64,000 nucleotides of DNA, taken from the NCBI GenBank assembly GCA_020002185.1, contig CM034534.1, positions 16,140,915-16,204,914 on the forward strand. Reading direction: 5' to 3'. The notes under the pieces are model-generated. The model saw nothing but the letters and a program-made list of their open reading frames with translations. It was not told the DNA's origin and made no database searches. This document shows positions 18,596 to 62,423 of the stretch, in pieces (the stretch's first letter is position 1; the number at the start of each line of letters is the position of its first letter). This DNA comes from Paraescarpia echinospica (lineage: Eukaryota; Annelida; Polychaeta; Sabellida; Siboglinidae). A program made the position numbers and the translations under genes.

Positions 18596-18599
18596 GACG

Positions 18600-34724: not shown

Positions 34725-35724
34725 NNNNNNNNNNNNNNNNNNNNNNNNNNNNNNNNNNNNNNNNNNNNNNNNNNNNNNNNNNNNNNNNNNNNNNNNNNNN
34801 NNNNNNNNNNNNNNNNNNNNNNNNNNNNNNNNNNNNNNNNNNNNNNNNNNNNNNNNNNNNNNNNNNNNNNNNNNNNNNNNNNNNNNNNNNNNNNNNNNNN
34901 NNNNNNNNNNNNNNNNNNNNNNNNNNNNNNNNNNNNNNNNNNNNNNNNNNNNNNNNNNNNNNNNNNNNNNNNNNNNNNNNNNNNNNNNNNNNNNNNNNNN
35001 NNNNNNNNNNNNNNNNNNNNNNNNNNNNNNNNNNNNNNNNNNNNNNNNNNNNNNNNNNNNNNNNNNNNNNNNNNNNNNNNNNNNNNNNNNNNNNNNNNNN
35101 NNNNNNNNNNNNNNNNNNNNNNNNNNNNNNNNNNNNNNNNNNNNNNNNNNNNNNNNNNNNNNNNNNNNNNNNNNNNNNNNNNNNNNNNNNNNNNNNNNNN
35201 NNNNNNNNNNNNNNNNNNNNNNNNNNNNNNNNNNNNNNNNNNNNNNNNNNNNNNNNNNNNNNNNNNNNNNNNNNNNNNNNNNNNNNNNNNNNNNNNNNNN
35301 NNNNNNNNNNNNNNNNNNNNNNNNNNNNNNNNNNNNNNNNNNNNNNNNNNNNNNNNNNNNNNNNNNNNNNNNNNNNNNNNNNNNNNNNNNNNNNNNNNNN
35401 NNNNNNNNNNNNNNNNNNNNNNNNNNNNNNNNNNNNNNNNNNNNNNNNNNNNNNNNNNNNNNNNNNNNNNNNNNNNNNNNNNNNNNNNNNNNNNNNNNNN
35501 NNNNNNNNNNNNNNNNNNNNNNNNNNNNNNNNNNNNNNNNNNNNNNNNNNNNNNNNNNNNNNNNNNNNNNNNNNNNNNNNNNNNNNNNNNNNNNNNNNNN
35601 NNNNNNNNNNNNNNNNNNNNNNNNNNNNNNNNNNNNNNNNNNNNNNNNNNNNNNNNNNNNNNNNNNNNNNNNNNNNNNNNNNNNNNNNNNNNNNNNNNNN
35701 NNNNNNNNNNNNNNNNNNNNNNNN
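34725..35724. other. Assembly gap, 1000 N
   Basis: Exactly 1000 unspecified bases, a placeholder rather than a measured length. It sits between the third copy of the 2.5-kb array and a hAT element, so both are truncated by it. Confidence 1.
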
Positions 35725-36245
35725 CGGTTTCGTGGCTTCGTTTGAAGCATGCCAAAGTTAGAGAAAATTCTCCCGATTGTTGCAGAATTAGCAGGCAATA
35801 TGAGCAGTCGCATTGCAAGATTGCACAGCTCTTCTCCAACTTCATTGGTATTAGCACTCTTCAAACATTTCCACCAAACAGCCCTAGACATGGATGTCAC
35901 ACATGACTCATTCAAGAATGATGATGGAAATGGGGAGGTCTTTGTATGGAAAGCCAGTATCGGTGGAAGCAATGTTGGTTGCTGCATGTTTAGCAGTTGT
36001 CTGGCGATTTCCTGTTGTTCTGTCGATAGTTTCTGGCCCATGTATTCTATCCTGTCAAGGTGATAAACATCGGTAGTTGCCTGTTTAATCATACAGTTGT
36101 TGAGATTAGTCCTTAGTCGGTCAGCCTGTGCACTCACAAGTGCCTGACATTGTTGGCATTGGGCTTTCTTCACCTTGCCGTCTTCTTCAATTGTACGAAA
36201 AAATTGCCATATATTGTCAGCCGGGCTTCCACCTCTGCCACTCAT
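35725..36245 (-). pseudogene. hAT transposase with internal deletion (BED finger joined to dimerisation domain)
   Basis: From ATG 36245: 'SGRGGSPADNIWQFFRTI' and 'VKKAQCQQCQALVSA' (a BED-like zinc-finger start, with a Cys pair), some 90 residues of linker, then 'EVGEELCNLAMRLLIL', 'PANSATIGRIFSNFG' and 'MLQTKPRN', the hAT C-terminal dimerisation domain ('P.NSA..ERIFS'). A full hAT transposase has several hundred residues of RNase H-like DDE domain between these parts; here it is missing. The E of 'ERIFS' is G. The frame is open up to the gap. An internally deleted, non-autonomous copy. Confidence 0.85.
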
Positions 36246-36949
36246 GATGCTAACTGACCAGTGCTTCATGAACAGAATGCCTGACAGAATGTGTATGTCT
36301 AGTCTGGTCTACTGATACTGGGGTACATGGCTTCCCAGCAGAGGATCCCAACAGACTACAAGTTCAAACATTAAGTTGGAGCTGATGTTGAGCTCATGGA
36401 GACAATGGCTACAGCTGTTTGTAGGTTCTTAGCCAGTTAGATTGTCATTGTCCCTTAGTCTAAATGCCAAGGCATTGTGTGGCTGGCAATGTCACAATTA
36501 ATGTTTGTTGAGAGGGTGCAGTAGAACCTGCCAGAGCTCCTCATTTCCTTTGTTCCTTAAACAGATTGCAAATTGGCACCTGACAATACTGGTCAGACTG
36601 TCTGACTTCAGTCACCATACTTCTTTAGCAGTACTTGGCACTGTCCCTTGTGAGAGTGACAATGATATTTATTTACTAACTGATCAATTACTCTTTCATC
36701 TCATTGACTTCATGCTTTAAACAAATACAAGGATACACCTGAACTAGTAACTAGTCAACCTGTTTGCTTTAGATGGATATTAACTATCTTTCTAAATGGA
36801 CTAGGTTTAATTACATAAACTAGCCAATGTAATATCAGTTATGGACTTATTCCCAGATATTACCGGTAAATACCAGATTTACCGGTAAATACCGGTTTTT
36901 CTCACTGCCCTGTCTAAAACCGTTTTTTCCCGGAAATGTGCCAACCCTG
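35725..36949 (-). mobile_element. Non-autonomous hAT element, 5' end defined, 3' end in the gap
   Basis: The minus-strand end reads CAGGGTTGGCACATTTCCGG, a classic hAT terminus, ending at 36,949. Subterminal TACCGGTAAATACCGGT repeats lie at 36,862-36,896. The deleted transposase ORF is inside. The other terminus and target duplication are lost in the N run. Confidence 0.8.
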
Positions 36950-36959
36950 CGGCCTGTAA

Positions 36960-38020
36960 TCAAATATTCATTTAAATGAAAGTGTTCTTTTCGCATTTAG
37001 CACGTGCAAATTGCAATCTAACATAAAAAGTCCAACTAAACTGTTAATTTTGCATACATTAAGACTCTATGCACAACTGTAACACTCTTTTTACAGTCAG
37101 GACGTCACTTTCACATCAAGCTGACCCTAGTCTCGCTTAACCGACTCTCGCCTGGCTGCGTGACTTCGCCAGAATGATAGTCTGGCTCTGAATGGCCCTT
37201 TTGAATGTTATGCCATGAGAGCTGCCACCTAGTGATTAAAAGGCATTAAACTACGAAAAAAGTTTACTGTCGGTTTATTTTGTGTGTGGCATGCTTCAGT
37301 ATAAGTTTAATGTTGAATAGTTGTTATAGTATAGTATTATCTGATAAAAGTGTATCCTTAGTGAATTGGTTATTTCATATTTGGCCTGAGAACCAATTAT
37401 CGTCGCTACTCGAATCTGGGGTAAAGCCCCCTACCGGTAACAATGGCTGGAGCTTAATAATCCAGGCCGTTGTGACGAGCCAATGCTGCCACCTCACGGT
37501 GCCTGGATAATCGAGGTTAAGCTGACCCTAATATCTGTCATGACACTCAAGGGCAGTGTAACTAATTAAGCACATTAGCCACATACATTTTATTTCCACA
37601 TTAACATACATAATTTTTTAATTGTATTCCAAATTAATGTGGAAAAACCGCAACTTCAGTCTGCTGAAGAAGGCCGTGCAAGGTGGCCGAAATATACAGA
37701 TCACAAACAACTAAGTTGTGTTGGTCTAGTATCCTAGTCTTGCTTCACAAAATGTTTGGTTATTTCAACTGCTTCACAATTAAATGTGATAATTTTGTTG
37801 TAGTACACTTTTAATTATCACATTTTGGTGTCCTTCTTTTATAACAATTTAAGTTTAATTTTGTCTTTACAAAGATACTATTGCTTTGATGTGCATAACA
37901 TTATCCCTGCTATATACACCACTTAAAATATATCAAATGACAGCATAAACACATTTCCTCTACTCCAACATTTGTATGCACTATGCAGTAAATTCTAAAC
38001 TTCGTCCGGAAAATCTCTCC
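36960..38020. other. No gene; possible Penelope-like 3' fragment near 37.66 kb
   Basis: Mostly unrecognised. CTGAAGAAGGCC...GGCCGAAAT at 37,662-37,692 has the hammerhead-like core arrangement (CUGAnGA, stem, GAAA) seen at Penelope-like element ends, but the flanking stems do not form convincingly. The remaining PARP catalytic exons would be expected in this stretch and were not found. Confidence 0.35.
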
Positions 38021-38029
38021 AGCATTGAG

Positions 38030-39083
38030 AACATACTCGTATACAAACCATTCTTGCCACAGTAGCTGCGGTTGAAGCCACCAGTGTTGAGAACATACTC
38101 GTATACAAACCATTCTTGCCACAGTAGCTGCAGTTGAAGCCACCAGTGTTGAGAACATACTCGTATACAAACCATTCTTGCCACAGTAGCTGCGGTTGAA
38201 GCCACCAGTGTTGAGAACATACTCGTATACAAACCATTCTTGCCACAGTAGCTGCGGTTGAAGCCACCAGTGTTGAGAACATACTCGTATACAAACCATT
38301 CTTGCCACAGTAGCTGCGGTTGAAGCCACCAGTGTTGAGAACATACTCGTATACAAACCATTCTTGCCACAGTAGCTGCGGTTGAAGCCACCAGTGTTGA
38401 GAACATACTCGTATACAAACCATTCTTGCCACAGTAGCTGCGGTTGAAGCCACCAGTGTTGAGAACTTACTCGTATACAAACCATTCTTGCCACAGTAGC
38501 TGCGGTTGAAGCCACCAGTGTTGAGAACTTACTCGTATACAAACCATTCTTGCCACAGTAGCTGCGGTTGAAGCCACCAGTGTTGAGAACATACTCGTAT
38601 ACAAACCATTCTTGCCACAGTAGCTGCGGTTGAAGCCACCAGTGTTGAGAACATACTCGTATACAAACCATTCTTGCCACAGTAGCTGCGGTTGAAGCCA
38701 CCAGTGTTGAGAACATACTCGTATACAAACCATTCTTGCCACAGTAGCTGCGGTTGAAGCCACCAGTGTTGAGAACATACTCGTATACAAACCATTCTTG
38801 CCACAGTAGCTGCGGTTGAAGCCACCAGTGTTGAGAACATACTCGTATACAAACCATTCTTGCCACAGTAGCTGCGGTTGAAGCCACCAGTGTTGAGAAC
38901 ATACTCGTATACAAACCATTCTTGCCACAGTAGCTGCGGTTGAAGCCACCAGTGTTGAGAACTTACTCGTATACAAACCATTCTTGCCACAGTAGCTGCG
39001 GTTGAAGCCACCAGTGTTGAGAACATACTCGTATACAAACCATTCTTGCCACAGTAGCTGCGGTTGAAGCCACCAGTGTTGAT
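38030..39083 (-). repeat. 62-bp tandem array, 17 copies, seeded at a PARP exon 3' end
   Basis: On the minus strand each unit is 40 bases of coding exon (encoding NTGGFNRSYCGKN plus one base) and 22 bases of the following intron (GTTTGTATACGAGTATGTTC plus TC). The rightmost copy is the true exon end. Units are almost identical; three (near 38,466, 38,528 and 38,962) have GTAAGT in place of GTATGT. 62 is not a multiple of 3, and the unit is open in all three minus frames apart from those variants. The long reading frames here are an artefact of this. Confidence 0.97.
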
Positions 39084-39218
39084 GCTTGTCACCGCATCTT
39101 CACTTGTCCCGTGCCAGAGACTGCGCTCAATGACAGCCGATTCCCCACAGCGTTTCTTCACGTCCTGTTTGTGCACCATGTACTTAAGATAGATGCTTGG
39201 ATTTTGAATTCTCTCAAT
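39041..39218 (-). CDS. PARP14-like: PARP14-like exon: ART domain, NAD-binding His strand
   Basis: 59 codons plus one base: 'IERIQNPSIYLKYMVHKQDV', 'VIERSLWHGTSEDAV', 'INTGGFNRSYCGKN'. The H-G-T is the first residue group of the H-Y-E/hydrophobic catalytic triad; the other residues would be in later exons. Acceptor TTGTTTCAG. The preferred donor AATG|GTTTGT restores the family 'GKNA'; GTATGT 12 bases on is an in-phase alternative. The exon end is multiplied 17-fold in the 62-bp array. Confidence 0.9.
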
Positions 39219-42200
39219 CTGAAACAACAACAACTGTTGTTTATAGGACATCATCCTTGCAAGTCAGGGGTGGTAGATGATTACACTCTCCCTGGCAGAT
39301 ACAATGTGCAGAAGTTTGCTGTACACTTGTACTTTGTTTTGTCTATCCTAGTGCATGACTGCGTGTGTGTGAGTGTGTGTGTGCGCGCGTGCATGCGAAT
39401 GCATGCATGTGTCGTGATTCTGACCGTAGGAACAAAGAGCAAACACCCATGCTCCATATCAAAGGGAAACTCCAGGAAATCCCAATAATTACCATTCGGA
39501 ACATACTGTGGTAGTGCACATTCTATTAATTATTTCTACCTTCTGAACATTACATGTAACATCAGCCTTAACTACGGGGTAGAATAGCAATGAGATGATT
39601 GAATAAAAGGCTCAGCCAGACTTCACGTTTTGACAAGACAACATACCAGTAGGTATGAGTCGGCAATAGTCACCAGCACCCCTTGGCGTGTGAGAAGGAA
39701 AACCACCATAACAGCTGAATAAAAAAAATATGCATGGCGTTTGATGTTAAAATATGACCAATCTGAACATTTCAGGTGTACAAAATAGTAATGTTCATGT
39801 AGCAAATATATATCTCAACACAGTAGTCCTACAGTTTGCCATACTGAAGTTGGTCAAGCCAGCCAAAAGTAACTGCATAACGCTGTGGCATCAATGTCTG
39901 AACTGGACTCAAATTGTCTGGTCAAATAGCTGAGGAAGCAGTGACTGAATCATAACAGCTGAACTACATTTATGTTGACTAGGGACTGGCCATCTAGCAC
40001 TGTGCATGTGTTTGTGTACAGGCAAGCGTGTGTGTGTGCACGCATGTGTGTGCATGTATACATAAATATATCCTGTACATGTCTGTATATGCGTTAAGAA
40101 ACAAAGGTTTATACTAATTTGTTCACACCAGCAAACATGAAACACTGGTTATAAGAATATATATATATATATACATATCACTGCCGGCTGGACAGCATTC
40201 GCCAAACACCGCGACATCTTCAAAGGTAACTTGAAGAGACAAGTCTTCAACTCATGCGTACTTCCAGTGATGACATACAACGCGGAAACATGGGTACTCA
40301 CCATCCAGGCAAAGAACAAGCTAGCAGCCGCACAAACAAAGATGGAAAGAAGTATGTTAAACATGACATATAGGGAGAGAAAAACAAACATCTGGGTAAG
40401 GCAGAAGACAAAGGTCATAGACGTGATAGAACAAATCAGAAGACAGAAGTGGACCTGGGCAGGGCACATCAGCAGTCTACGAGATAACAGATGGACATCG
40501 CGTATCATAACCTGGAGACCTTACGAAGGGAAACGTCTAGAGGAAGACCGGCGAGACAGTGGAAAGATGAACTAGACGAGTACTGGAAGGGCGCCATCTG
40601 GCAGAGGATAGCGCAAGACAGGCAGATTTGGAAGCGACATGCTGAGGTCTTCGCCCAACCACGGGATCCTACGGCTGCACAATGATGATGATATGTATAC
40701 ACATGTATACTCCTAACAGCACCATATATGTATAAATAAAACAAATTGATATTAAGGCTGTAACTAAACTTATCCTGTAGCAACCACACAACAGAGCTGT
40801 TGAAAGCTACCAGTTGGGCTGGATACTCCACTAGTGTGTCCAGATAGTGATGCCTATAAACATAAACGATGCATCACACTCACTTTGTGGATGCACGTCA
40901 CATTCTTCTGTGCTGTACTCATCATGAACTTCTTCACCTCCTGGTATTCAATGCTGCCAGATGCCAGTTCTACCAACTTGACAAATTCCGATTCGTCCAT
41001 TGCAGACCAATTACAGGGCAGTTCCAAATTACCTAAAATAAATTATATTAATTATTTGGCAAACTGCATTAATCTGTGTTAGGCATATATGAGGTAACAT
41101 TTTATTCATAGTACCAAGATAGTGTTTATTCCAAGTTTTGTGCACTTCAGAGGACTGTTTCCAACTGTTTGAAAGTACAGAAACTCTGATTTCACTGGTT
41201 TCATTGTGAGCACAAGCTAGAGGGCTGGTGGAGACTCCTGGCTCATGTCCCTGTAAAGTGACACAATTAACCAGATTATAACACTAAACCCTTATCTTTC
41301 AGGATGCTGATGAATAACTTCACCATTAATAATGTGATGGTGCTGAACTTTTCAGCAATTAAGTTTCAATAGGTATGCTTCAGAAATAGCACTTTGTAAT
41401 TCAACAAAACTTTGTTTTTCAATTTTTGAAATCCTTGTGCTCCCATTTAAAGAATTTGGGAAAGCATGTAAGCAAGAGGTTAGAAGAGATACAGTTATTA
41501 TTACTAACATGATTTTATCATAAACAACCTGATTGTGTACCAATGCTAAACTATCAGGTTGATGACAAAACAGATACCTTTAAATGGTGTGTGACTGACA
41601 GCTCCATCTGGTGAAACAGGATGGGCATGAAACTGTTCTTGCAGGCCACAGCAGCTGCTTAGCAGCACTTCTTCAAATGCCTGAATCAGATAAACATATT
41701 TCTAAATCCCAGATAAAACTACATGATATAATACGCTGTGAAATCGGAAGTGTTTATTAGACCCAAATAAAAACAAAATGGTACAATTTTCAAAACAGAA
41801 ATCACAGCTCAATTATGAAATAATATGCTAGTTAGTTAAAATATATAACATAAAAATTGAACAATAATGAATTAAGGGTAGTCGCTGGTCCTAAAGTAAC
41901 TACCGGCCTTATTTTTGTTAAAAGTGATCGTATCTTCATAAAATTTGAGGATTACATTAGTGGGGTGAAGGTTGTTAAACATGTAAACAATTTGCTAATT
42001 TGCTTAATTGTTGCCATGATTTATGTGCCTATGGAACTATGCCCCACAGGAAAAAATATTCAGAGTAAATGTTAGCAAATAGTACCATACTATTGCAATA
42101 AGTTGTTTGTTGGAATGTTACTTTGCACAATAAGGTGGATTTGGGCAGCGACTTCACTTTTATGACCACAGTGAATTGTGCTGTTCACGTGAAGATTGTT

Positions 42201-45200
42201 TTTAAAATTCCCTAATTGGTTGACCCTTGTTTATAAACCTTTAAAATAAAGCTGTGACATCCAAAATTTCAATTCTCCATCTTGTGTAGTTTTTCTAAAA
42301 TAATTTTTTCCATTGTTATAAATGGTGAAGAATATCTTTATGAGAAAACGGCCAAAACAAAATAAGGACGTGATACGTTAAGCAGTACAGGTAGATATAC
42401 GTCATCTGATTATAGGTATTTGTAATCAGAATTTTGACAAATGCAATGTATTGGGAGGAATGTATAGTGTGTTAATCTATTGGAAAATAATGAAATCCCA
42501 AAATGACAAAAACAAATTTAGGCCCAGCAGCTACCCTTAATGTACGGAATAACCACGGACTGTCATGTTGCTGTAGATAAGCTAAAAAGGGTTCAGGGTG
42601 ACTGCCACTAAAGACCATTGTTGGTCGCCCTCGAAGCAGCCACCCCAAAATTGTAATTTTCAACAAGTTACATTTGGCTCACTTAAGATTTTCAAAAAAT
42701 AATAACCAATTGCATAGTTTCCAATGGAGTAAGGATTTTGACAAGTATTTCAATTATGTGGAGAACTATGTCAGGAACTTTGCTAATGTAACATATATAA
42801 TCAACATTATTCTGGTTAGGGTGGGTCTCACTGTCCCACACTCCTACCTATAAACAAACCTAACACTTTCCAAATGGAGCCACTGGATATACTACACACA
42901 CACACTGCCAACATTGTGAGTGGACAGGTGATTATTACAAAATTTCCACCAGTGAAAGAAATCTAAAATGTATTTTTCAAAATGTTGTATAAGCCAAATG
43001 GACACTAACAAATAACAATTTATGATTGTTGGAAATAAAGTGTATTTATAAAGATCCTCGTAGTGGCCCTGCAAGTACTTATCTGGTTCAATACGCATAT
43101 CACGTCTTCCTATACTTCTAAAATGGGCAGTAAGATAACATTGTCAAACCATCAAAATTAATCAAACTGTGGATATGCAACAGATTCATTCAGATTCAAA
43201 ATCATTTACTGCGGATGACTTACTTGTATGACTGAGACAAATGTTAACAGTAGGATGTCTGAGAAGCAATTCTGATTAAAATGTAGAATTGTGGATATGC
43301 GTCGGATTCGCAATTCTACAGTATTGTTTTTAATCAGAATTGCTACTCAGACAACCTACTGTTAACATTTGTCTCAGTCATACAACTAAGTCATCCGCAG
43401 TAAATGATCTTGAACTTAACACTGTAATGTTTCTGCAGACACCAAATGTTTTCCTAATAGTTAATGTACTTTTAGTTATGTTTTTTGTGCAAAACATACG
43501 TTGGTAATGCTATAAAACATACATTAAATAATGAGATTGGAGAAATAGAACATGCTTCAGTATCAAGATAACTTACAAAATAACTGTTTAAAAAGGGACA
43601 TAATGCAACATCAGGTATATATTGTCTTGAGGTGATATATAAATATATACTCTTTATATGTGCCCTGCATCAGCAAAGTGGATATTAAGTTTCAAAGTAG
43701 TGAAACACAGTTCTGTATCTGTTTAGAATCCACAGATGACGACCTTTAAAATTATACCTCATTTGTTGAAATATCTTCAGCTGTTTCTGATTTATTGCTA
43801 CAACTGATGCAAATCTTAAAACGGCAACGTTTTGAGCAATGAGTTCATTTTAACTCATATTATCCACAGATTATTGTTTTTTAATCTGTGCATTAATAAA
43901 TGCATGTATTTTTTATTATTTTTTATCAACTGTCAAGAAAAATACACTGGAAATTTAATTACTTGATTATAAGGTGTGCATTTCTGCCAAAATCACAAAA
44001 GTAATGAATAAAACAGCTACTTTTTGGCTTGTGGGCTGAATAGGCCTAGGTGACTTAATGCTCAGTTCGCTGTGACGAGTCACTCACAACATACCTGTGA
44101 CGTCTCATAATCTTTCGGATACACTACAAATCTCACATCCTTCACTGGTGTTTGCGGGTAGAGGTGGCTGAATTTGACGAGCTCTTCCAACATGATTGTA
44201 GCAACGAGGTGGGGTGGAAAATTCCTCTGGCCTGTGCCAATGGAGGGGAAGGCCACAGACGTGAAGTTCTTACTGTGAACCTCCATGAAGATGTTTGTCA
44301 TCAACCTCCTCAGAACCTACAACAAAAATCACTCACAGATTTAGAACAGTGGAATCAGCTCATACAAATATAACAAGCTGAGAGTAGCCCAGTGCTGAAA
44401 GCAAGAATCTACCAATGCCAGAAACATTTACGTAAGCACCAACACAAGTCATGAATAGTGATGAAATAAGGCCAAATGAATGACGTTTATTAAAGAGATT
44501 AAGTTAAAGAGAGAGAAATGTGGGCTCTACATCCCAAGGCCAGGCCTGTGACTGAGCCCATACTAGTCTCACATTTGTTGCTTCCAGGGTTATTTGTGTG
44601 AGTAATACATTTCAGTTCAATATTTCAATTATCAGAAAGCGTAGTATCAACAGAAAAGTTAAAACTTCAACAATTACTTGAAGGAACACCTAATAAAAAC
44701 TAAGACAATGTAAAGCACAGTTTTCGCATGGCAGCTAAGTGATAGTCAGAAGTAAGGTCAAATGTCAAGTCAAACCATTCGGTACACTTGTACGGGCTAC
44801 ACTCAAAGGACGACTTTCAGCACGGAACTACTCTCGGTCAGATACACCTCAAACTTGTCACTGACAACACAGCCATTTGCCGCAATACCGTGGTAACTTG
44901 CTGTTGTGCCTTGAAAATTAAACAATGGTCAAACTGATGTGTCCAGTACATCGCAGTTTGCGAAAGTGACAATTGAAATTTTGTGCATAACCTCAGTCAT
45001 GCTTAAACTTTGCCACTAAGGTTGATGACGGTTGTATAAGTGAATTACATTACTATTGCTGCACGACATCTCATAAATAAAATATTCCCTCATGCAGTTG
45101 TCACTTTAGAAATTTTGCCTTATGTTTTTATCACAAACACTTTTGTGGCAAGAATTTCAACAAATTGTATGACGGAATGCACGAACACAACGTGTGTTCA

Positions 45201-48200
45201 GCATCCATTTTGTAATGGCTTGATGGAGCTTCTGCTAAGCAACAGGTTGCGTGATGGATAGACCCATTAAGGATTCTGGTTTTTATGCTTCGGATGTCAA
45301 GGATACATATGCTATTATAATCATCTCATCAAGGTAAAAGCAGTACAGGTGATACCTCCTTGCACATGTCCGCTCTTTCAATCCAGTCGCAGCAAGCCCC
45401 GTGTATGACCACCTGACACCGCAGTCTTCCACCAGATGTCACCACAGTCTCGCCGTACTGGATACCTTCTGGTGCACTCCGGTGACATTCCTCCTCGAGA
45501 ATTTTCCCACCAGCCTTGAGGAGAGAACTAGAGAGAGCCCCATGTCTCAGGTGAAGCTTACGAGTTGGGGTGTTGACAATAGCATCCACCTGCGATGTTA
45601 CAGACAGCCATTTTAGAATATTTATTAGTGCTAGCATGCAGACGTATTACAATGATGTATCTCAGGTGAATTCTTATTGTAAATTTATGTTAAAAACTAG
45701 CAGCATTACCTGGCTTTGCACAGGAAAGACACTTTTCAGATCAAGCCGAATCTATGCAAATTGAACCTTAGGGAGCACTCCCAAATTCCTGGAATGTGCT
45801 ACACCCTCCAATCATTTGTACTCAAATCTGACCTTCATTTTTTTGTATAATTCGGAATGAAGAAATTTTACCCACTGCCAAATCAAATCTCCAACACATA
45901 AACCAGGGTGCACGGTGGATTTAGTTGACAGGTAGTCCGTCGGACTAGCTGACTCAGAAACAACTAGTCCTCATATTGTTTTACTAGTCCTTAAAAATCA
46001 ATCATACTGTTGTATTATATATCATATATGTGTGACAGTTATGGCACATATTAAAAGTGGTTTTATTTCATAAAGAAAACAAGCCGTTTCCCATTTCAAT
46101 TAAATGTTCAACTAAATGTGTCATTAATAGAAACAAATACATGTGATTTCGTAGATCCAATTGCAAAGTTATCAGAAGAAATGACTAGTTTAATCAGGGG
46201 CAGCAAACAGGAGTCGTGGACAAGGCGATGCCTGCAGAATTTTAAGCCTAACGGCGACAAAGGACCGACATTGTCGGACTAAGTTGCATCATTTGCCATA
46301 TACTTTTCCTTAGCGTTTTCTTTCCCGAAGCCGACTAAACAATCAGTAACATTGCTGGCGTTTGGTAATTTGCTAAAATAATCACCCAATGCGGGAGTAA
46401 CGCAAGCAACTACCATCACGACGTGATAGCACGTAACGATGTCTGTAAACCGCGCATGTATTTTTGTCCATGTCGCTCATCACTCATGGTCGCTAGGTGG
46501 CACTACCTATCCTACGCTAACCGGATGTAAACAGCCGCCATTTACATTCACTGCGTTCAGCAAGTTTCCCATCTGACGGTCGTATGGAATATTTAGCTGC
46601 CTGTAATAAAATGCTACCTTACTGTCTGGTTTTGTTTTAATCCATCACAACACCCAACTAGCGTATACAGAGCGTAAATTAATTTACATAATAACAGCTA
46701 GTCCGATGGGACTGCTCCACTAAACATGGACTAGTCCGATCACTGAAACTACTCGTCCGGGACGATCGGACCGGCCTTATTTCGCAGCCTGATAAACTGG
46801 CCGAAACCCCACAATGCAGTGTATTTCAAACTGGGCATAGCCTAGATTCCTCCTATCCACTGTCTTGTTAGATGATTATTGTAATATTATGAAAATCAAT
46901 AAGACTACACAATTATCACACCATGAGTTAAGTGTTAACTTATATCACCTGCCCATCTCTCCCCCTCTTGTTCTCTCTCTCTCTCCCCCCCTCCCCTCCC
47001 CTCCCTTCCCCTCCCTTCACTTCCCTTCCCTCCCCCCTTATTAGACAACATAGTCCCTTTCGTAACAAGATGAAAGACATACAAATCATTACAAATGCAT
47101 GTACCTGTTCATCAGCAATTGTTGACTTGTGCAGCGACAGGACAATACCCTCGCTAGTCTTCAGTGTGATGTCAGTGGGAGCGGAGTCCTTGAACATCAC
47201 CTCACTGAAAGCCTGGGCAATAAACCATTCATCATTGAATGCCTGCAGAATAATCATGCATCACAGAAAGCCTGGACAACAAACCATCCATCACAGACAG
47301 CCTGGACAATAAACCATTCATCACTGGAAGCCTGCACAATAATCATGCATCACAGAAAGCCTGGACAACAAACCATCCATCACAGAAAGCCTTGACAATA
47401 AACCATTCATCATTGGATGCCTGCACAATAAATCATTCTTCACTGAAAGCCTGGACAATAAACCATTCATCACAGAAAGCCTTGACAATAAACCATCCAT
47501 CACAGAAAGCCTTGACAATAAACCATTCATCATTGGATGCCTGCACAATAAATCATTCTTCACTGAAAGCCTGGACAATAAACCATTCATCACTGGAAGC
47601 CTGCACAATAATCATGCATCACAGAAAGCCTGGACAACAAACCATCCATCACTGAAAGCCTGGAAAATAAACCATTAATTGCAAGGACAAGACAAAATTC
47701 ATCACTGAACACCTCGACACAAATCCATTGATTGATCACTGAAAACCTAAACAATAAACCATTAATCACTGAAAACGTGGATAATAAACCATTCATCACT
47801 GAAAGCCTGAACAATAAACCATTCATCACTGAATGCCTGGAAAAAACAGTTCATTGCTCAAGGCCTGAACAAGAAACATTTCATTATTGAAAGTCTGAAT
47901 ACAAGACATACATCCATCACTGGAGGCTGAACAAGAAAGAATTTACCAATGATCAAGAAACAATTAATCACGGATTGCCTGAAAAACACACCAGTTGCAT
48001 GATGTGGGGCCTGTCATCTGTGGTATGATTTATATAGAGAGCCATGGATTTGTAAACTCTACACAAAAGGTGTGTCTCACAAAGAAAATATGCAAAAAAT
48101 CAAATACAACACCTAATTTGTTGTATGAATATTGTTGATCTTTGTATAACCTTATAACACAAAAGTCCACAAATGTGATACAAACACAATAAATCTGAAT

Positions 48201-51200
48201 ACCTTTCTGTAATTTCTGTTTAACTGTTTAATAAAAAAAAATACTTAATTGATAATAAAACAGTTTTATATAGTTAGCTCTTAGAAAGATAACTCATGCA
48301 GAAAAAGTGTGACCACTCTAATAATTATCATGACAATCACATGACACAAGGACAAATAGCACTTATAGAGTGCTGTACAGGAAAGCGATGCAGTTAAACA
48401 TTTTCCACACTAACTTGTATGTTTGGATGACTCGATGGGTGCAGCACAAACCGCACATCTCTCAGTTGTGTATTTGGGTACAGATGGCTGAACTTGACGA
48501 CCTCTTCCAGCATCGTCGAAGCAACAAAGTCCGGTGGAAATTTTCTGTAGCCAGAGCCAATGGCAGGGAACGCAATGGATGTCAAGTTCTTGTTGTGGAT
48601 CTCCAGTAAACTGTTGGCCACCAGTGATCTCAACACCTGTTCAACAACAAATACAGATGTTAGCATGATGGCAGAAACTACGAGGCGACCGTTTCACCAA
48701 GATGATGAGCTAGGAAAATACAGCATTAAGCAGAATTTATTGTTAAACTTAAGTTGCTTTTTAAGCTTGCAAAAAGTTGCTGCCGTATCGCGAGGATGCT
48801 GTTTCCATGAAACACAAGTAGTCATGTCTGATTGGCATGGGTTGGCAGTTTTCTGTGTACAAGATTACTATTATGGAACAAACTTGATTTTAAAGAGCAA
48901 AATTGGGCTTACTAGTTCTTATATAGTGCAGTGTCCAGTCCTAGGGACTGCTCAAAGCACTTAGCACATTACTCCCTGGCAGACACGTTCAATCGACCAC
49001 CATCTCGACTTATCTGGGAAGCATTCAGCCATGCTGCAATTAATGCGCAAAGACTAATTGTACACAAATATCCACAACTGTCTATAGCCAGGTACTCATT
49101 CATACAGCTGAGTGCACTGAAGCAATGTAGAGTAAACAAACTTTGCCAAGGTTCGACACCGCATTCGAACCCGGGTTCTCTCGGTCGAGAGACCGAAGCT
49201 CTTACCACTGCGCTAATGCGCTCCACGTGAATATTAGTAAATGGTCTCCTGGACCATTTACAAGAGGCATGCATGAAAATGACCACATATGAAATGAGGT
49301 GAGTGGAGAATCAGAAGAAAACATAACAACACCAATAGAGAAAAGGTAAGAATTGAGAAATACAACCAGTGCCTGATCACACAGAAAAACAAAGAAGAAA
49401 ATGGTTTGGCTGTTTAGGCCTCTTGGCTCAACTGAAAGGATGTGTGTGAATCAACCAGTGACAAAATATCAGGGGGCACAACTGGTTACATCAGTCTCAG
49501 CACCCCGGCATATCACCTTGTCAAAATGCTGGAGGTCAGCCGAGCCCAATACCCAGTCATCTCACTGACATTCTAGATGCAACAATTTAGGTTTGTGTCA
49601 ACCGTGGCTGATGTTACATGCAATTATTAGAAATGTACTGCTGCTTGATCATGTGAATGGTCAGACTGATAATTACATAAAAAGATGGTAAGTTCTTACA
49701 TAGCACAGTATCCAGTCCTCAGGACTGCTCGAAGCGCTTTACACTTTACTCCCTGGCAGATTTGTTCAATCGAACACCACCTCGACTTATCCGGGAAGCA
49801 TCCAGCCATGCTGCAATTAATGTGCAAAGACTATTCGTACACAAATATCCACCACTGTCTGTAGCCAGGTACTCATTCATACAGCTCGTGAACTGGAGCA
49901 AAGTATAGTGAATAAACTTGTCCAAGGTTTGACACCGCAGCACAGGATTCACACCACTGTGCTCCAGACTACATTGGAATTTCCTGGAGTTTCCCTTTGA
50001 TATGGGGCATGAGTGTTTGCGTTGTTGCCATGGTTACAATCGCAACCGACAAACACAACAACTAGGGCAAAATACAACTGTGTCAGTGAACTACCGTACA
50101 GTGCATAGGGTATAAGCCAGAATAGTGAAGACGACTACGTCCTCTGGGTTACGAGAAGGATGTCCTGTAACAATATGTGTGAATCGCCTCTGCAAAGGGG
50201 TATTAAGTCAGAAAACTTGAACAATGACATTGTAAGGTGGGCATTTCTGCCAAAATCAAAAAATTGATCTGACATGACCTACCCCCGGTAGACAGCTATT
50301 TTTTGCTCATTTGCAGAATAGGTCTGTGCAACTTAAGGGAGCCAGTCAGCTACTCTACCTGGAATTAGCTGGCTTAGTAATTTGCAACAAGAAGTCTGCT
50401 GTTATGAACAGGTGAAATCGGGAAACCATTCAACATCAAAGGGTATTGCAGTTATTTCAGCCCACCTCAACAGTAATGCAAATAGCACTTATTTTGAAAC
50501 TGGATGTTTTGTTTACAATTTCAACACGGTACGGTGTCGTATCAGTCAAATTACGAACGTTGTTGCGGGCAGTGTACCTTCAACATACAGTAGTTAGTAT
50601 AGTCGTAAGAACATTATATTAATTAATAAATGAAAAACCAGAAACAGACTGCCTTCTTTTAATACCTAATTCACCGTGGTAGGTCACACAATCTGCTAAC
50701 AAACGTCCATGTACGAGTGCCATGTACCTGTTGAGCCAAGGTCTTATTTTCCCTCCAGTTGCAGCAGGCGCCATGTACAACGTAGTCGCACTGCAGGTTG
50801 CCACCAGAGGTCAGCACGACCTCGCCGAACTCGATGCCGTTGGGAGCACATCTGGCGCACTCCTGCTGTAGTGAGGGACCTCCGATCTTGACCAGTGACT
50901 TTGACACGGCGCCGCTGCTGTTCAAATGAAGCTGACGCCCTGGTGTGTTTACAATTGCACCAACCTGTAAAAGATTTGCTGTGTAAAAACATTCAATTTC
51001 ATGAATATTTTTCGTGATAGTTCATTTCTATCTGAATTAGTTCTTTTAAACATATCCAATATGTGAGTTTTTACCTTGTAGAGGCTTTCATTGATGTGAC
51101 ACACCAACTTCTTCAGTACATATGACGTATGACGTCATCGTACATGTTTGTCATGCGTCACATGTACTGAAGAAGTTGGTGTGTCATATCAATGAGAGCC

Positions 51201-54200
51201 TCTACAAGGTAAAAATTAATGTATTGGATATGTCTAAAAGAACTCATTTACATAATTCAATTTCAATATAATTCAATGACTGTTAGACAACTAAACTATG
51301 CACATATCATTTGAGACATCTAATTAAAACTTTTAATTCTGACAATAATATTATACTTGGAGTGATACCCATTATAATTTTGTCTTAGTAGGAGCCACTA
51401 ACTCCAGTTTTGTTCTAAATTGAATTTGTTTTATGGTAAGGAACATTTACTTAACTATGGTTTTGATCATAATTATGTAACGCATATGTTATATATGTGA
51501 ACAATTGTATTTGTATTCATATAATTATAATACATGACATTCTTTATGTAAGTATGTATGTTTCTGTGTTATTATGCCATATGTAATATATGCTTGTGAA
51601 TTATTTTTGCTTGTTGGAGTAAACAAAACTTGTTCTTCTTGTTCTAATACAGTAGATTCAAATAATTAAAAGGGGTTTTATTGATCACTTTTCACAATGT
51701 TGCATTTTCTGGCACAGGAATTTTACTACTGGGTTATACAAACTTTGTATTGTGGACTTTTTGTTAACATGCACTTAATTTCTAGCAAAAATAATAACTA
51801 GCTTATGCTCGCCCAGAGCAACAAAGCAACGACAGCATTTAGCGCCACAACAGTATCTTGAACTTATGATGCGACGTGGGAAATATGTGATCATTTGTCC
51901 ACTGAAAACAGCATTATAGGTTATTTGCATTGTAATTTGGTAGATCAGATGCCAATGGTCCAAGGAAACAAATTAATATTATATATATATATAAGTATTA
52001 ATATATATATATATGGGTCGTTCTCTGAAACTGCACTCCACTGTGGGCCACGTCTTGTGATACATGCAACAAAACTACCTTCTTGTGTATTTTAAATGTT
52101 TTGCACCCTCATTGATTGAAATTGAAATGAGAGACAACAGAGATATCATAAAATAAAAATTATGCCTTTTTATGTTGTTTTATTGTGTTTTTGTGTGGAC
52201 ATCGATTCGAAAATGGCGTGCCGATTTGTGACATGAAAATGGGCATGTTGGGGATGTGCATTCAAGGACAAGACTGTAGACTGAAACACTCGAATTGTGC
52301 CTTTTAAAGCATCATTATACCAATATCTACCAAACAAGCTGCTCGATAATCTTTGCTGAGCAATAGTTCATGTAGATATTGCAATGTTTTGATCAGGATC
52401 AGCTACGTAACGCTTTGTGTCCGGACACACACTCTTTACTTCGGTGTGTAGCTTGGCGTATGAATACACTGGACTGACGCTATCAGCATGAGCATAACAA
52501 GCACACGTGTAGTCAACATGTTTTCAGAAGGACGGCTATAGTAGTTTGTTTTAACCGTTGAAATTTAATTTTGAAGTTGCCACTCCGGAACCGTGTCCGT
52601 TTTTGAGCGATACGTGCCAATCAGAAGTGTCAAAAGATGTGTATATTTGAAGCGAGTAAGGACTACATTTTTAGTAGAAGAAGGTCGCCTGTACTGACGG
52701 AAGAATATCAGTACACATTCTTTCAGATGATGCTGTGGGGTTGCCTTTGCGGAGCAATTTTTTTGTATGGTGTCTATTCGCGCGCGAAAGTTACGCGGCT
52801 GATGCCAGCGAGAGCAAACTGCTCAAAGGCATGTTTTGATGCAGATTTATGGACGTTTTCTTGTATTTTCTTGTTTCTAAATGATTGTTATGAAATTGTC
52901 TTCGCTTTACAATACTTTGTCAACGAACTACTTATCATTGCACAATTTTTTTTAAATGATCTGAGGACTGCCATTTTGGGTGTTCTCGGCAAGGACCATA
53001 CTTGCGACGATCAAAACTGTGTGACACCGGCTATACTGATTTCATTCCTAGAAATATTTAGTTATAGTGTAGTTAATTGATTTTTACGAGTTTTAAAGAA
53101 GCATGAAGCCTCCAACGAAAGGTTATAGTTAGATATGTTTGTCGATAGCCCTCGCCATTTGCTCCGTAACGAGGAAGCCGACTCATTCGCCATGACTAGT
53201 GTCTTTGTGACGAGGCTGATCTTACAGTGAGAAAATCGTGCTTTTTATAGTCCATTCCAGACCAGATAAGCACTTTATACCTTAAATAGTTTCGGACTTC
53301 GTTTCCAGCCGATTGCTGGATTGTTATCTCACCCACGTAACAGAGACCCAGCATTTTTCGCGTCTTTCTTTGTAATAAATCTACTTTTAACTGGATGTGC
53401 TTTTTATTATGAGAGAGAAACCGACATTGGGATTAAAGTTTTTTTCTCCACAAACAGTAAACACTGTGAACCTTTAATACGTGTATTGCAGCTTCTTGTG
53501 AAAGTGCTCTCAGCTCCGTCACCGAGACACCAGCACGTTTCAGTCGTGAGAGATTGAAGGGAAACTGTGTTAACTTGATTTGCTTGTTTTTCTGAGCTGT
53601 AACTGATAAACATGTGATGTAACAGGATCAGTGATTTTGACAGGAGATCATGAGGTTTATTTTTTACAACACCAACATTTCTGGCCTCCTATTTTTTAAG
53701 CCCCCTCTCCTGCGGCCCATCCTCAGCTAAATCCTTCTCCTGTGGGCCAGCTTCGGCCACCTCCTCCTGCGGCCCAGCCTCAGCCAGTCCACCCTCCTGT
53801 GGACCTGCCTCAGCCAGCTCCCAACCCAGCCAGAACCTCCTTCTGGAACTACCTCTCAGGTTGGGAGCTTTATCAAGGTGGAGCTACAGGGGAGGAACAG
53901 GAAGGTGCCAATTTATGGCAAAATACTTCACACTGATTCAGAATCAAAGGACTTAAAGGTGCTGTACTTGAAACAGCGTCCAGATTCAGGCAGGTCTGTC
54001 TGGGCCGATGAGGCCTGGCTTCCAGCTCACCACCCTGTGACTTGTGTGTCCCCTCCCACTCTTGCACCTGGTCGCGGGGTTGCGCTCATATTTTGAACAA
54101 GGTGTATTGAACACTCTGTAACAGTGTTTCATTCAAATGTCATATGATTGGCATTAATTTGTTTCTTTTTTGTTTTGTTTTTCTTTACAAATTAAACGAG

Positions 54201-57200
54201 GCTTGATTACATTTACATTGCAACCATTTGTTAGATTTTTATTTGTATTGTCTGTCACCTGTTACACAGCTGATACAAATTTATAAACAGATGGCAGTTC
54301 TTTAAAATTTATGAGTAATCATCTCAAACCTTTTGTGGGCATTCTTTGCTCCTTTATGTAGCTAATAATGATGTCACTATGCTGATAAACTTCATTCTTG
54401 TTGGACAAAATAGAAGTGTGTGAACAACAAATTATGATCGCTACGAACCAGTTCGTGAATAATGCACAAGTATGACTTCTAGACACTGCCTCAATGTAAC
54501 AGAATATTTGTATGCTATTTTTAGAGGTTACCAAAACATATCCTTGCAATTTAATAGACTCTGGGGTTCTCTTCAAGCTGTTTGTAAGAAACATTTTGTG
54601 TCCATGTTACACGGCAAAATTTCGTCATGGCCGACAACTTTCAAGTTTCTACTGCCAATATACTTTCCTGACTTATCTTTTTTCCTGCAGAACTACTTTC
54701 TATGACCATGTGTCTTTAAATAAAAAGCATTTCAGATTTTTTGGAGGAGTTTTATTTTTGGACGCCAGTGTCACACTTTGGGGCACAGTTTCAGAGAACG
54801 ACCCACATATATATATATATACATGAGGGGGTCGGTGCAGTATAGTGCTAACCCACTTTTTAAAAAATCAGTTAGATGCATTAACATAGTGCTAACTTGC
54901 TAAGCCACATATCTACAAACCCGCAAAGTTAGAAGTTACAAAGTATACTACAGAGGGCGCCACAATACTTGCATATTCTTGCCTCTAAACATAGGCAATG
55001 AAACCTTAAAAACTAAAACATGATTATCACAATCAACATGTTGTGGGTTAGCACTATACTGCTCCAACTCCCTCATATCTATGGTATATATTATATATAT
55101 ATATATTATATCTACACTGCTGAATCCCTCGGAAATAACTAAACCAAAGCCAATGGCACAATCAACCACAATTGTTAATAATTATGAGGGGATGTGCAAA
55201 AGTTACATCAAAGCAGCGGGGTTTTTTTGGGAGGAAATTATATTTGCAATTCTGCATGGAAAGCAGCTACAATTTCAGATTATTTTTTAAGTCAAGAGGA
55301 GTTAATTCAAGATTTTGGATGCAGCTACAAGAATGGGGCTTGCCCAGGTTGTACTTAGTCTTAGGCACAACAGGTTAGTTTTAGGACGAACAGTGTTAAA
55401 CAAGTCAGCTGTGCAGCTTGATACATCGCAAGGACGCACAAATCCTAAATTATTTTACCTGTTGTCGTGCGATTTCTGACTTGCACAGAGATATGACAAT
55501 GCCTTCCTTCGTCTTTACAGTGCCAGGGCCCACTACTTCAACTGTAACAAAAGAAGTGGCAGATATCTATGTTGTGTATTGGCAGCAGAGATATCTATGT
55601 CATGTATTGGCAGCAGAGATATCTATGTTATGTATTGGCTGCAGATATATCTATGTTATGTATTGGTTGCAGCAACAACAACTCCAGAAAACACACTCTA
55701 CAGTGATAGCAGCAAAACAAGACAATATTGCCTTAGAATAAGAGAATATTTTTTTAAAGAAAATATTTTCTTGAAATAAGAAATGTTTTCATGACAAGCT
55801 TCTTAAGCACCAACATATTTTCTGTTGTGGCTCCCTAGAAAATTGTTCTTGGTTTAAGATTTGGTCTTAAGACAAGGAAGCTATTTTAGCACGGAAATAA
55901 CTATTCTTTGAATGGGTGTATGCGTCATCGCAGTTGCAAACTAAATGTAGCTGTCTGTCAGGAGAAAGCAATTCTAGCAACTAGCTGATTTGACGATTGA
56001 TTTGCATGACAGACACGATTGGGAAACACAACACAAACACTTTTATTATTTTACATTTATAGATACTGAAATAAATGCCCCAGGATATCAAGATTTTTTG
56101 AGATTATCATTTATACTAGTTTACATCGGATATGGGGCAACAAATCACTCATTTATAGTGGTGCCATCTGGAGAACTGATCACCACTCAATTCTCATAGG
56201 TAGGAGAAAGACCCTCAAGAAAAGCAAAGCATATAAAAAATGCATAACTAAATAATTCTAAGTTTTGTTGTGTTTTCTGAAATACATCGCCAATTTGTAG
56301 ATCAGAGGCTGATGATCTAAGGAGGGTAATGAACATAAAAAGAGGTAAGTGGACCTCGTCACTCAGACAAGATGCACTTACAATGATCCAAAGTTAGTGT
56401 ATTAATATTATATTAATATGAAAGGAAGATACCCTATGATTACCTTTGTCCGAGTCTCCAGTCCCGCCTGACGACTTCTGGGATGCATTTTGTAAACCTG
56501 CACTCCCGTTAAGCAGGACTTCCTCAAAGGCCTAGGTCAGGGATACAAGTACAAATTAGGAAACAATACAATCACATCAACTTCTGGTGTCAATTAATGC
56601 ATAAAACATTACTTTACTCACACTGTTTAACGTGTTAAAACTGGATGTATGTAACCTGCCAGAGTAAAGTCTTCAGTAGTTTTTGATGTACTACTAAAAA
56701 TGAAGCAAACTTAACAAAACTGACATTTTGAGAAGAGTTGGTTTTAATATTGGTCTAGGTGCAAAATCAATGATCAGTGCAACCATACATGAAAGTATTT
56801 TATTAGTTTTGGCTTATTTGTCGAGTGAAATAAACTTCAAATAAGCGCCATTACTGTACGTGAAAATTGGATGCAACGTCAAACTTGAAGTCGACTTCAC
56901 ATCTCACATCGGCATCTACCAAAACACCATTAGCTAACCGCTCTGTAAGTGGTTCTACATTCAACTCCAATAAAAAATAAATGTAAGTCCATTACAGTTG
57001 GAAATTGAGGTGCACAGACACGTGGGATTTAGAACATTCACAGCTAACATAGTAAACATAAGACAAAGCCAAAAACGTTCATTAAACACATTTTGTTTCA
57101 CCACGACAGATGCAGCACAGCGCCTGGATGCATTACTGTAGTTGTCAACAAGTGACTTGTAGGTCTTCTAAAAACTTCTCAAATGTGCTGACTGATATTT

Positions 57201-60200
57201 CAAACTCAACTTTCTGTATACGTGTCTTCCTAAGAGGTTGAGTTGTCACAGTGCTCACTTATTTTTCAATCAATATAACTATTTACATACAAAATAATGT
57301 GGCGTTTGTGCATACATTGAATTTCAATTCTTGCGTATGAACACTGCGCCGAATGGCAGACCTGCGGTTGACCTTTGATTACATCACAAACGGTGTGACC
57401 TACCACCCAATAACTTGGAGTAACATTTTGATGTTGTGTAACTTTTTGCTGTGACGTTGCACTTAATCGGATTAGGTAATGGTGTCTATTATACTAATTA
57501 AACCTGTGAACAATTATGCCATACACATGCACACATCACTCGTAAAAAATAAGCAGTGTTCGCTATTTAAAGATTTAGCCCATGAAAAGTACGCAAAATA
57601 TTCAGAATATAAATAACTTGGTTGGCAATATATTGCAAGTCGGTTTAAAAGTTATACAGTTGAAGCAACAGGAAATTACATTTCACCTGTCACATGGTCT
57701 GAACTTACCCATAAGATCAGGTCAATGTTTGAGCATGCTACCTGGATTACAGGAAAGGAAATTTCACCTATCACATGGTCTGAACTTACCCATAAGATCT
57801 GGTCAAAGTTTGGGCATGCTACCTGGATTACAGGAATGGAAATTTCACCTGTCACATGGTCTGAAATTACCCACAAGATTTGGTCAAAGTTTGGGCATGC
57901 TACCTGGATTACAGGAAAGGAAATTTCACCTGGCACATGGTCTGAAATTACCCACAAGATCTGGTCAAAGTTTGGGCATGCTACCTGGATTACTGGAAAG
58001 GAAATTTCACCTGTCGCATGGTCTGAAATTACCAACAAAATGTGGTCAAAGTTTGGGTGCGTTACCTGGATTACTGGAAAGGAAATTTCACCTGTCTGAA
58101 CTCACCCACAGGATCTGGTCAATGTTTGGGTATGCTACACGGATGTCCCTCAGTTTTGTCTGTGGATTTTGACGGCTGAATTTCTGGAGTTCGTCCAGCA
58201 GAATTGTTGCTACAAGATGTGGCGGGATCCTCTTTCGCTGGCCTGTGCCTAGGGCAGGCAGCGTCACAGACTGCAGGCTGTGGTTGTGTGCAGTCTGGAA
58301 AATGTTCACCATCAATGTTCGCAGAATCTACAACAATATAAAGAGGTATGTTCTTATATAGCACAGTAACCAGTCCTCAGGACTGCTCAAAGCGCTTCAC
58401 ACTTTACTCCCTAGCAGACCTCTTCAATCGAAAACCACCTCGACTTCCCTTGGAAGCATTCAGCCACAGTGGAATTAATGCACGAAGACCAACTGTACAC
58501 AAATATCCATTACTGTCTATAGCCATGTACTCATTTGGCTTGGATATAGATAGTAGTGGATAACATGAATTTCCCTCCAAGGGACAATAAAGTACTGTCA
58601 TTGTCATTAATTACCTTTTATACAGTTGAGAGAACTGGAGCAACATAGAGTGAAATAACTTGCCCAAGGTGCGAAACAGCAGCAAGATTCAAACACTGAA
58701 TCTATTGATTGAGAGTCCGAAGCAGAAACCATAACAGCACAGCGCTCCACAATGTGACTTGCAAACAGTTATATACATGCATTATTGCATGGAAATGGTG
58801 TTTTTCCCAAGACGACAAAGTAACAAAAACAAATACCATCCATATCAGTAGCTACTGGTTTGAATATTGTAGAAGAATCGGGAAATATACAAGTACATTC
58901 ACTTCTTATTCTATTCTACTAGCTACGATGATATCCACTCAATGTTCCAAAACTTTTGTTTACAAATTAACATGCAATTTCAGAATGAGATGGTTGCATA
59001 TTATCTTGGGGAGGATATATCACCATTTACTGGATAACCCTCGGCAGAATTGATACATCCACAAACCATGTGGCATATATACAAACTATAAAATTACAAT
59101 TTTTGAAGGATACATCAACCGTCCACAATTGATCAGTGGACGGTATTCGTGGCTTGTAACAAAAACACACGCATATTATTGCAAAAAACTGATCAAAGCT
59201 GTGTAAGTTGAATCAAATGTATGTAGACTGCCCGGCAGTTACAGCGAACTGCAAACACATTTTCTTATGGTACAAAAGGTACATGCTTACAAATTTACAA
59301 TGTATTATTCCCATAACATTGGCTGGGCTCAGTAATATTCTTACTTCTTTCAAAGTGAATTTACCTTCTTTCCATGTTTGAACGAAATTTCAAAAAAGGC
59401 GTTTATCGTGTTTTGCCTTTTATATATATATATATATATGAAGGGTTCAGGGCAAATATATATACATATATATTACATTTAGTGTCTTGTACCTGTTTAC
59501 AGTTGTCAGCTCCATCAGACCATGAACAACAGGCTGCGTGGATGACATACTGACACTTCAGTTGCCCACCAGATGTCAGCACCACCTCGCCAATCTGAAC
59601 TCCATTTGGTGCAGTCGCTCTACACTCATTCTGGAGTGTTGTCCCTCCAACACTAAGGAGTGTATTAGAAACACTGCCCTGATTCAGCTGTAGGTCACAG
59701 CTGCAAGAGTTGACAATTGCGTGTACCTGAAAAATACCACGTTAACAGACTGAAAGTATTTCAAATATATATGACTTTATATATGTGTACAATATTTTGG
59801 TTAAGTAATGTGTCATTCAAGGTATAGAACTGTGTCTAAGTTTCATAAATAAATCCCTATATATTAACAGAAAATACTAAATGTTTAGGATCATGTGTGT
59901 GTACATGTGTGTGTGTGCACGCGCGTGTGTGGGTGTCTGTGTGTGTCTGTGCCTGTGTGCTTGTATGTATGCATATATGTGTAACTCTTCAAATTTACAT
60001 GTATTGCATACTTATTTTGAAGAACATTTAGGCAACATATCTTTCAAATATTTTTCGGCATACTTTTGCCCGCCACAAAATTAATGGTACCCTGTTTGTA
60101 AACAAGTGCGCATGCACATCTACATGATTACATAACATTCTGTGTTTCTAATATATGCATGCAGGTTTCTCAATGCACAAATAGTGAATTATTTAATGCG

Positions 60201-61716: not shown

Positions 61717-62423
61717 TAATGGGGTCAATACAGAGTTGGTTTTTCCATAGATTATAAGAAAACATGACCTATAAAATGTCTTAAACTTCTCACCTGCTGT
61801 TACCATCATCTCATTGACATGCTGATAGATTTTAACAAAAATTGCACACTTCTAGTTCTTATACATATGACACCCGTCAATATTTACAAATGCCGGCAAG
61901 CATTACTCCACAAACAGGTCACACAGGCAAATTGCTGCCAAATATCCTTCCGCTTATTCAAATCATCTAGAAATCCACCATTTTACAGTCAACACCTTCT
62001 ACAATCACACATGAAAATCTGCATACTCAAATGCCCTTATATCACAGCATGTGAATGTTGTAAAAAAATAATTTATCAAAAATACATTACACTTTTCTGT
62101 AACCAAGCAGGAAGTCTAACTAGAACATGACCCCTAATGTAGGCACTTCAACAACAAAATATCATGCTAGAACATTGGGAATGGGCTTAAATTAAAGGTA
62201 ATAGGTTAAGGATCACATAACTGTTTATTTTATTAAGATACCTTTAATAGATCAAAAGATATTGCGATTTTAAGACGGAAACAACTTTTTTATTTATACA
62301 TATATTTAAATACTGTCTTCAGGGCTTTCAAAGACATTGACAAGAGTAATAAATTTATAATATTTTTAGTACTAATTATAACCAAATTAATGCAATTAAT
62401 TAGTTAATTTTAGTTAAGTAGCA

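Follow-up and report, generated by a model that had tools for sequence, protein, structure and literature searches.

Minisatellite arrays across three exon-intron boundaries of a PARP14/15-like gene in Paraescarpia echinospica

The window analysed here is a stretch of 64,000 nucleotides from the annelid Paraescarpia echinospica (contig CM034534.1, positions 16,140,915 to 16,204,914), whose genome comprises 1.08 Gb in 3,111 contigs. On its minus strand, 13 exons with AG/GT edges (Table 1) join into a single open frame of 725 aa without a stop, in which the Pfam Macro domain was detected in three stretches (221.3 bits). The PARP catalytic domain reached 24.1 bits in this protein, below the cut-off of 26.7 bits, and passed the cut-off with 85.7 bits when E14 was added from a second contig, C3077 (32,681 bp). 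The 13 exons of a PARP14-like gene proposed in the initial annotation were thereby confirmed. Judged from its domains, the gene would encode a PARP14/15-like mono-ADP-ribosyltransferase with three macro domains and an ADP-ribosyltransferase (ART) domain. Searches of the window by motif, by tblastn and with a profile from three relatives revealed no further ART exon; a gene truncated at its C-terminal ART exon was considered and rejected, because E14 is present in C3077. PARP14/15-like mono-ADP-ribosyltransferases likewise consist of macro domains followed by an ART domain, but their N-terminal part was not seen in the worm gene: no exons were found upstream of E1, and tblastn with the relatives detected no N-terminal RRM/WWE parts, which few of these relatives have, in the 40 kb that follow the right end of the window. 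In one protein comparison 8,000 candidates were scored; in another, among the best 120 of 351 proteins, the highest identities (48-57%) belonged to proteins of Lamellibrachia satsuma and Ridgeia piscesae. When this set was ranked by score, proteins of hemichordates and gastropods took the second to fourth places, and a lancelet protein stood far down (239 vs 513 bits).

Table 1. Exons, tandem arrays and assembly gap at the locus (window positions unless a contig is named)
Feature	Position	Strand	Basis
Run of 1,000 N	34725..35724	.	
Array A: 62 bp, 17 units, 38 exon + 24 intron bases with E13 donor	38025..39078	-	TRF, unit anatomy
Array B: 30 bp, 24 units, E8 acceptor with 11 exon + 19 intron bases	47202..47992	-	TRF, core matching
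Array C: 81 bp, 6 units, 33 exon + 48 intron bases, E3 donor region in each unit	57661..58138	-	TRF, unit anatomy
28-bp array: 3.8 copies, ends upstream of E5 acceptor without spanning it	55561..55666	-	TRF
E1, first recognised exon	60232..60329	-	frame, AG/GT
E2, macro domain 1	59493..59726	-	frame, AG/GT; Pfam Macro
E3, macro domain 1; donor duplicated by array C	58106..58327	-	frame, AG/GT; 222 bp like E7, E10
E4	56444..56531	-	frame, AG/GT
E5	55459..55541	-	frame, AG/GT
E6, macro domain 2	50728..50964	-	frame, AG/GT; Pfam Macro
E7, macro domain 2	48415..48636	-	frame, AG/GT
E8; acceptor duplicated by array B	47105..47212	-	frame, AG/GT
E9, macro domain 3	45356..45589	-	frame, AG/GT; Pfam Macro
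E10, macro domain 3	44095..44316	-	frame, AG/GT
E11	41578..41680	-	frame, AG/GT
E12, linker ahead of ART domain	40884..41032	-	frame, AG/GT
E13, first part of ART catalytic domain; donor duplicated by array A	39041..39218	-	frame, AG/GT; Pfam
E14, last ART exon, ends AYPKYLITFE, stop; absent from window	C3077:11262-10985		

Three tandem arrays with mutually unrelated sequences, referred to here as A, B and C, lie in the gene, each with the authentic exon edge at one end and the remaining copies outside the coding sequence. The right end of array A was placed at 39,082 by TRF, and its units are 99% identical. For array B, TRF reported 23.5 copies (47,202-47,897); the 24 units counted here are all places matching at least 17 of the 30 core bases. 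The first unit of array C is 73 bp long; 8 bp are missing from it, and for this reason the TRF call stops at 58,096, 9 bp away from the E3 donor. In this unit, the 33 bases of exon sequence match units 2-6 at 25, 30, 29, 29 and 28 places, and therefore array C extends into E3. The claim that unrelated arrays of 62, 30 and 81 bp duplicate a 5', a 3' and a 5' splice site, respectively, was thus borne out by the anatomy of the units together with independently fixed exon edges. The arrays had also been described as beginning at the exon edge; the junction is indeed duplicated, but the starts lie 38, 11 and 33 bp inside the exons. The 28-bp array is close to the E5 acceptor as described, at a distance of 19 bp rather than 22 bp. 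An array of 168-178-bp units (4.3 units) was also observed upstream of E1 (window 62,394-63,148).

The exon edges concerned could be established from comparison with other exons and proteins. E3, E7 and E10 occupy the same place in the three macro domains, and because each of them is 222 bp long, the edge of E3 is fixed independently of array C. The start of E8 (AFSEV) resembles, by eye, the starts of E4 and E11 (AFEEV). The edge of E13 is fixed because the downstream exon E14, which sits behind array A in C3077, gives a homologous junction: the sequence GKN-A-TMYGKGVYFA across E13-E14 resembles GKNATAYGQGVYFA in the Lamellibrachia protein P0004. The three arrays duplicate genuine splice junctions, and the exon edges are older than the arrays.

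Arrays of this type are known in amphioxus under the name of mirages, for which the founding paper is Canestro et al. (2002), as cited in PMC3087553 and PMC3902484. According to the available parts of these two reports, mirages occur in Adh3, the globin genes BflGb6 and BflGb9, TnC and PGBD5, at 5' as well as 3' boundaries; they differ in length between alleles, and the mRNA seems to be normal. The BflGb6 mirage has 6 and 3 units in two haplotypes, and somatic instability was reported for that of Adh3. The amphioxus mirages and the worm arrays are alike in that a minisatellite unit carrying splice signals lies across a 5' or 3' exon-intron boundary, and, as far as those parts describe them, also in unit lengths that vary by locus and, if C3077 is the other haplotype, in allelic length differences. 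The worm differs in being an annelid, with three arrays in one gene and up to 32 units. The initial annotation knew of no description of the pattern, a view that can no longer be maintained, since the mirages in the portions seen of PMC3087553 and PMC3902484 match it at both boundary types. No multi-copy mirage-like case outside the lancelets was found in the literature searched, of which subscription journals mostly form no part. Large minisatellites within an intron are also present in another annelid, in intron 1 of earthworm metallothionein genes (PMC12783039); they differ in this placement, and splice-site-spanning units are not mentioned in the available text of that report. Within this literature, the pattern itself has already been described as mirages, and what is new is its occurrence in an annelid, as three arrays in one gene, two of them compared between contigs.

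Mirages were proposed as a source of new introns in the accessible part of PMC3087553, and the worm arrays could accordingly be read as steps of intron gain by tandem duplication. Published models make use of such duplications (PMC4974935 and PMC3087553, in the parts available), and acceptor-like (CAG/) and donor-like (/GT) sites are both present in the units of array C. In the potato RdRp gene, an intron was gained by one duplication across an intron-exon boundary, as described in the available part of PMC4974935, which also cites fission-yeast cases. The potato and yeast cases are similar to the worm arrays in that tandem duplication copies splice signals, with the boundary crossed in potato, whereas the worm arrays, compared with what that part tells of potato, have many copies, old introns and no sign of a new one. 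The edges of E3 and E13 are common to corresponding exons or homologues, which shows that these introns are old. Neither a new exon nor a new intron was seen, and intron gain is considered highly improbable here.

Contig C3077 allowed part of the locus to be compared with a second copy. It matches window positions 35,725-53,072 in four pieces that are 96.8-99.6% identical, and its first 1.5 kb match a 2.5-kb repeat to the left of the N gap of the window. Between these matches, where the window has the gap, lie 11.6 kb of C3077 that have no long match in the window and hold E14; as the match on the left lies within a repeat, 11.6 kb need not be the real length of the gap. Exons E6-E13 differ between window and C3077 at 11 of 1,453 bases, and E6-E14 of C3077 are open, with no premature stop. 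C3077 is probably the other haplotype of the window; it may also be a recent duplicate. A comparison of array lengths had been proposed in the initial annotation, and it revealed differences in both arrays that C3077 covers, A and B: 17 units of array A in the window against 9 in C3077, and 24 units of array B against 32, with identical array ends in both contigs. In mirages, end units should escape homogenisation. In array B, both contigs have in common the 14 units at the beginning (one base apart) and the three at the end, and differ in the interior; TRF also reported an 89-bp, three-unit period in this array. The units of array A are nearly uniform throughout in both contigs, and array C is too short for a judgement. 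Provided that C3077 is the other haplotype, the unit numbers of A and B differ between alleles. Such a change of length is ordinary minisatellite behaviour.

These data also bear on the idea that the arrays are assembly artefacts, as the N gap in the window and the near identity of the array A units might lead one to suppose. An artefact of one contig was ruled out for A and B, as C3077 has both arrays with the same ends and unit types at other unit numbers. The exact unit counts may nevertheless be wrong, and array C has no second copy here; as an account of the arrays, misassembly retains only a very slight probability.

The initial annotation considered it unlikely that arrays had fallen on splice junctions by chance. 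In a placement model in which each array arises from one unit seeded at random in 38,025-60,400, with at least 1 base demanded on each side of the edge, the probability is 2e-4 that the three largest arrays all span an edge, 6e-4 that three or all of the four strong arrays do so, and 5e-3 that at least three of all ten arrays (unit at least 15 bp) do so; with 8 bases demanded on each side, the same model gives 7e-5 to 9e-4. Strong arrays are frequent in this genome: by the same criteria, 4 lie in the 22.4 kb of the gene, 1 in the 34.7 kb of the left part of the window and 4 in 40 kb of the right flank, and 6 were found in eight 10-kb stretches picked arbitrarily (76,603 bases once N are excluded), 3 of the 6 in one stretch. 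At the density of these eight stretches, 0.12 edge-spanning arrays are expected in the gene, and 0.4-71 genes with three such arrays are expected by chance per 30,000 genes of this kind (point estimate 7.5), where 30,000 is an assumed gene number and most genes should be smaller than the PARP14/15-like one. The placement is unlikely for this gene alone (P 2e-4 to 5e-3); given the number of such genes expected, the chance argument holds for the gene by itself but does not extend to one selected from the genome at large. A separate array with a 21-bp unit and 125 units was recorded about 35.5 kb past the right end of the window (L017 5,525-8,153).

The low probabilities obtained for the gene (7e-5 to 5e-3, depending on the arrays and the overlap counted) would be explained by a mutational process at exon edges, such as transcription-linked slippage, R-loops or splice-junction repair, that seeds minisatellites preferentially, as perhaps in amphioxus, where mirages have been reported repeatedly, according to the parts of those papers available. 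This possibility was raised in the initial annotation, and several results speak against it. Locally repeated sequence contains 3 of the 26 edges (11.5%), the same share as the 11.5% found for 600 random positions in 39,300-63,000, a control that is harsh in that it counts every copy of long arrays. Within 1.5 kb of the other 23 edges, no duplication trace rose above background (scores 15-25, control median 19). Chance alone would give 0.4-71 such genes per 30,000 of this kind, and the window was chosen as striking. The GC skew on the coding strand is +0.106, +0.291 and -0.039 for arrays A, B and C, so that no skew common to the three points to R-loops, and the suggested link with R-loops is not supported. 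Preferential seeding at exon edges is therefore judged unlikely.

Another proposal is that the copies form selected splice-site clusters that lower or vary the expression of the ART enzyme, the copy number tuning the extent of mis-splicing. Splice-site scores were obtained with a rough matrix. By this matrix the E13 donor scores lowest among the 13 (2.8), and array A contains copies with GTATGT (4.4) and, in three copies, GTAAGT (7.2); altogether 33 donor-like sites were counted in array A (17 GTATGT/GTAAGT and 16 CTG/GTGGCT), the true donor itself being below the threshold. Array B has 34 acceptor-like sites, the true one included. Given the weak E13 donor, the sites in array A might really be used in splicing. 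None of 16 alternative donors checked in array C (of 19 listed) keeps the frame, and all 16 give a premature stop; in array B, 1 of 17 alternative acceptors (of 33 listed) keeps the frame, namely the nearest, which adds 10 aa; and in array A the frame is kept by 5 of 33 alternative sites, with the 16 CTG/GTGGCT sites left out, and the nearest adds 4 aa. Since few alternative sites keep the frame, splicing at the exon-proximal site is required for the normal protein, and use of the neighbouring site in arrays A and B could yield near-normal proteins.

That many array copies score as splice sites, that most of the alternative products checked are truncated or out of frame, that array A splits the ART domain and that the nearest alternative sites in A and B preserve the frame would all suit such a regulatory role. 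On the other hand, array A differs almost twofold and array B by a third between the contigs, a degree of variation that one would not expect a tuned device to allow freely, every alternative donor checked in array C leads to a stop, and amphioxus mirages were described, in the parts of the reports available, without disturbance of splicing. A selected splice-site cluster is accordingly regarded as very unlikely, and we think that the arrays probably have no selected function.

The arrays are best explained as mirages, that is, as minisatellites that grew from a unit lying by chance across an exon-intron boundary, and this reading is considered likely. It is indicated because the units hold exon and intron bases together with the splice site, because the exon-side array ends lie 11-38 bp inside exons with older edges, and because the unit numbers of A and B differ between contigs at fixed array ends. 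The first tandem duplication would have been produced by slippage between short direct repeats; in array A, the exon sequence TCAACACTGG agrees at 8 of 10 places with TCAATGCTGG from the far end of the array. Slippage or unequal exchange would account for the later growth and shrinkage of the arrays. A boundary-spanning duplication may be tolerated, as normal splicing is still possible at the copy that adjoins the intact exon; duplications within exons, by contrast, would be purged. Ordinary birth and turnover of minisatellites across exon edges, tolerated by the gene, is thus the best account. It is favoured because this genome has many minisatellites (6 strong arrays within the 76.6 kb sampled), because both contigs keep the exons open, because the introns are old (222-bp exons, homologous E13 junction), because most of the array sites would spoil the protein, and because amphioxus has the same class of arrays, for which length differences between alleles and seemingly normal mRNA are described in the available parts of PMC3087553 and PMC3902484. 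Against random seeding it must be counted that three of the four strong arrays on edges exceed the expectation (P 6e-4), and against neutral mirages that the E13 donor is weak and array A offers stronger copies.

The annelid case, with its length differences, suggests that mirages occur wherever minisatellites are common, and it adds a second group of animals for studying whether repeats are drawn to exon edges, whether the copies are spliced and whether they feed intron gain. In a wider version, minisatellites would be born preferentially on exon edges in vestimentiferans as in amphioxus, by a common process, and such genomes would keep producing polymorphic splice-site clusters, here altering the amount of an immune-type ADP-ribosyltransferase that is made; this version is held to be quite unlikely. 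Gene models may stop at mirage edges, as is hinted by two models of relatives, P0001 (Lamellibrachia satsuma) and P0007, which end, or continue into other sequence, at or just past the E13 edge.

Several other features were observed in the region. The 2.5-kb unit mentioned above is repeated about three times at window 27,291-34,724 and runs into the N gap at 34,725; it is 97-100% identical in four of five compared stretches, and the fifth has one copy at 73%. A second gene, whose zinc fingers are of the RING and B-box-like types, starts on the minus strand at window 17,446-18,688; its nearest protein is P0051 (74% identity over 52% of the query), and it may also include later reading frames near 3.8 and 2.1 kb. 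A frame cut by the N gap (window 35,726-36,308, minus strand) matches the hAT transposase C-terminal domain with 14.9 bits, below the cut-off. The E5-E6 intron contains, at window 52,015-54,804, an element that lies between AT runs and has terminal inverted repeats of 19 bp (GGGTCGTTCTCTGAAACTG); the first 1 kb of this element is also found in C3077. A short dispersed repeat at window 39,410-39,567 has dozens of matches (68-82%) on many contigs, and long palindromes at window 43,180-43,415 and 51,065-51,215 resemble, by eye only, miniature inverted-repeat elements.
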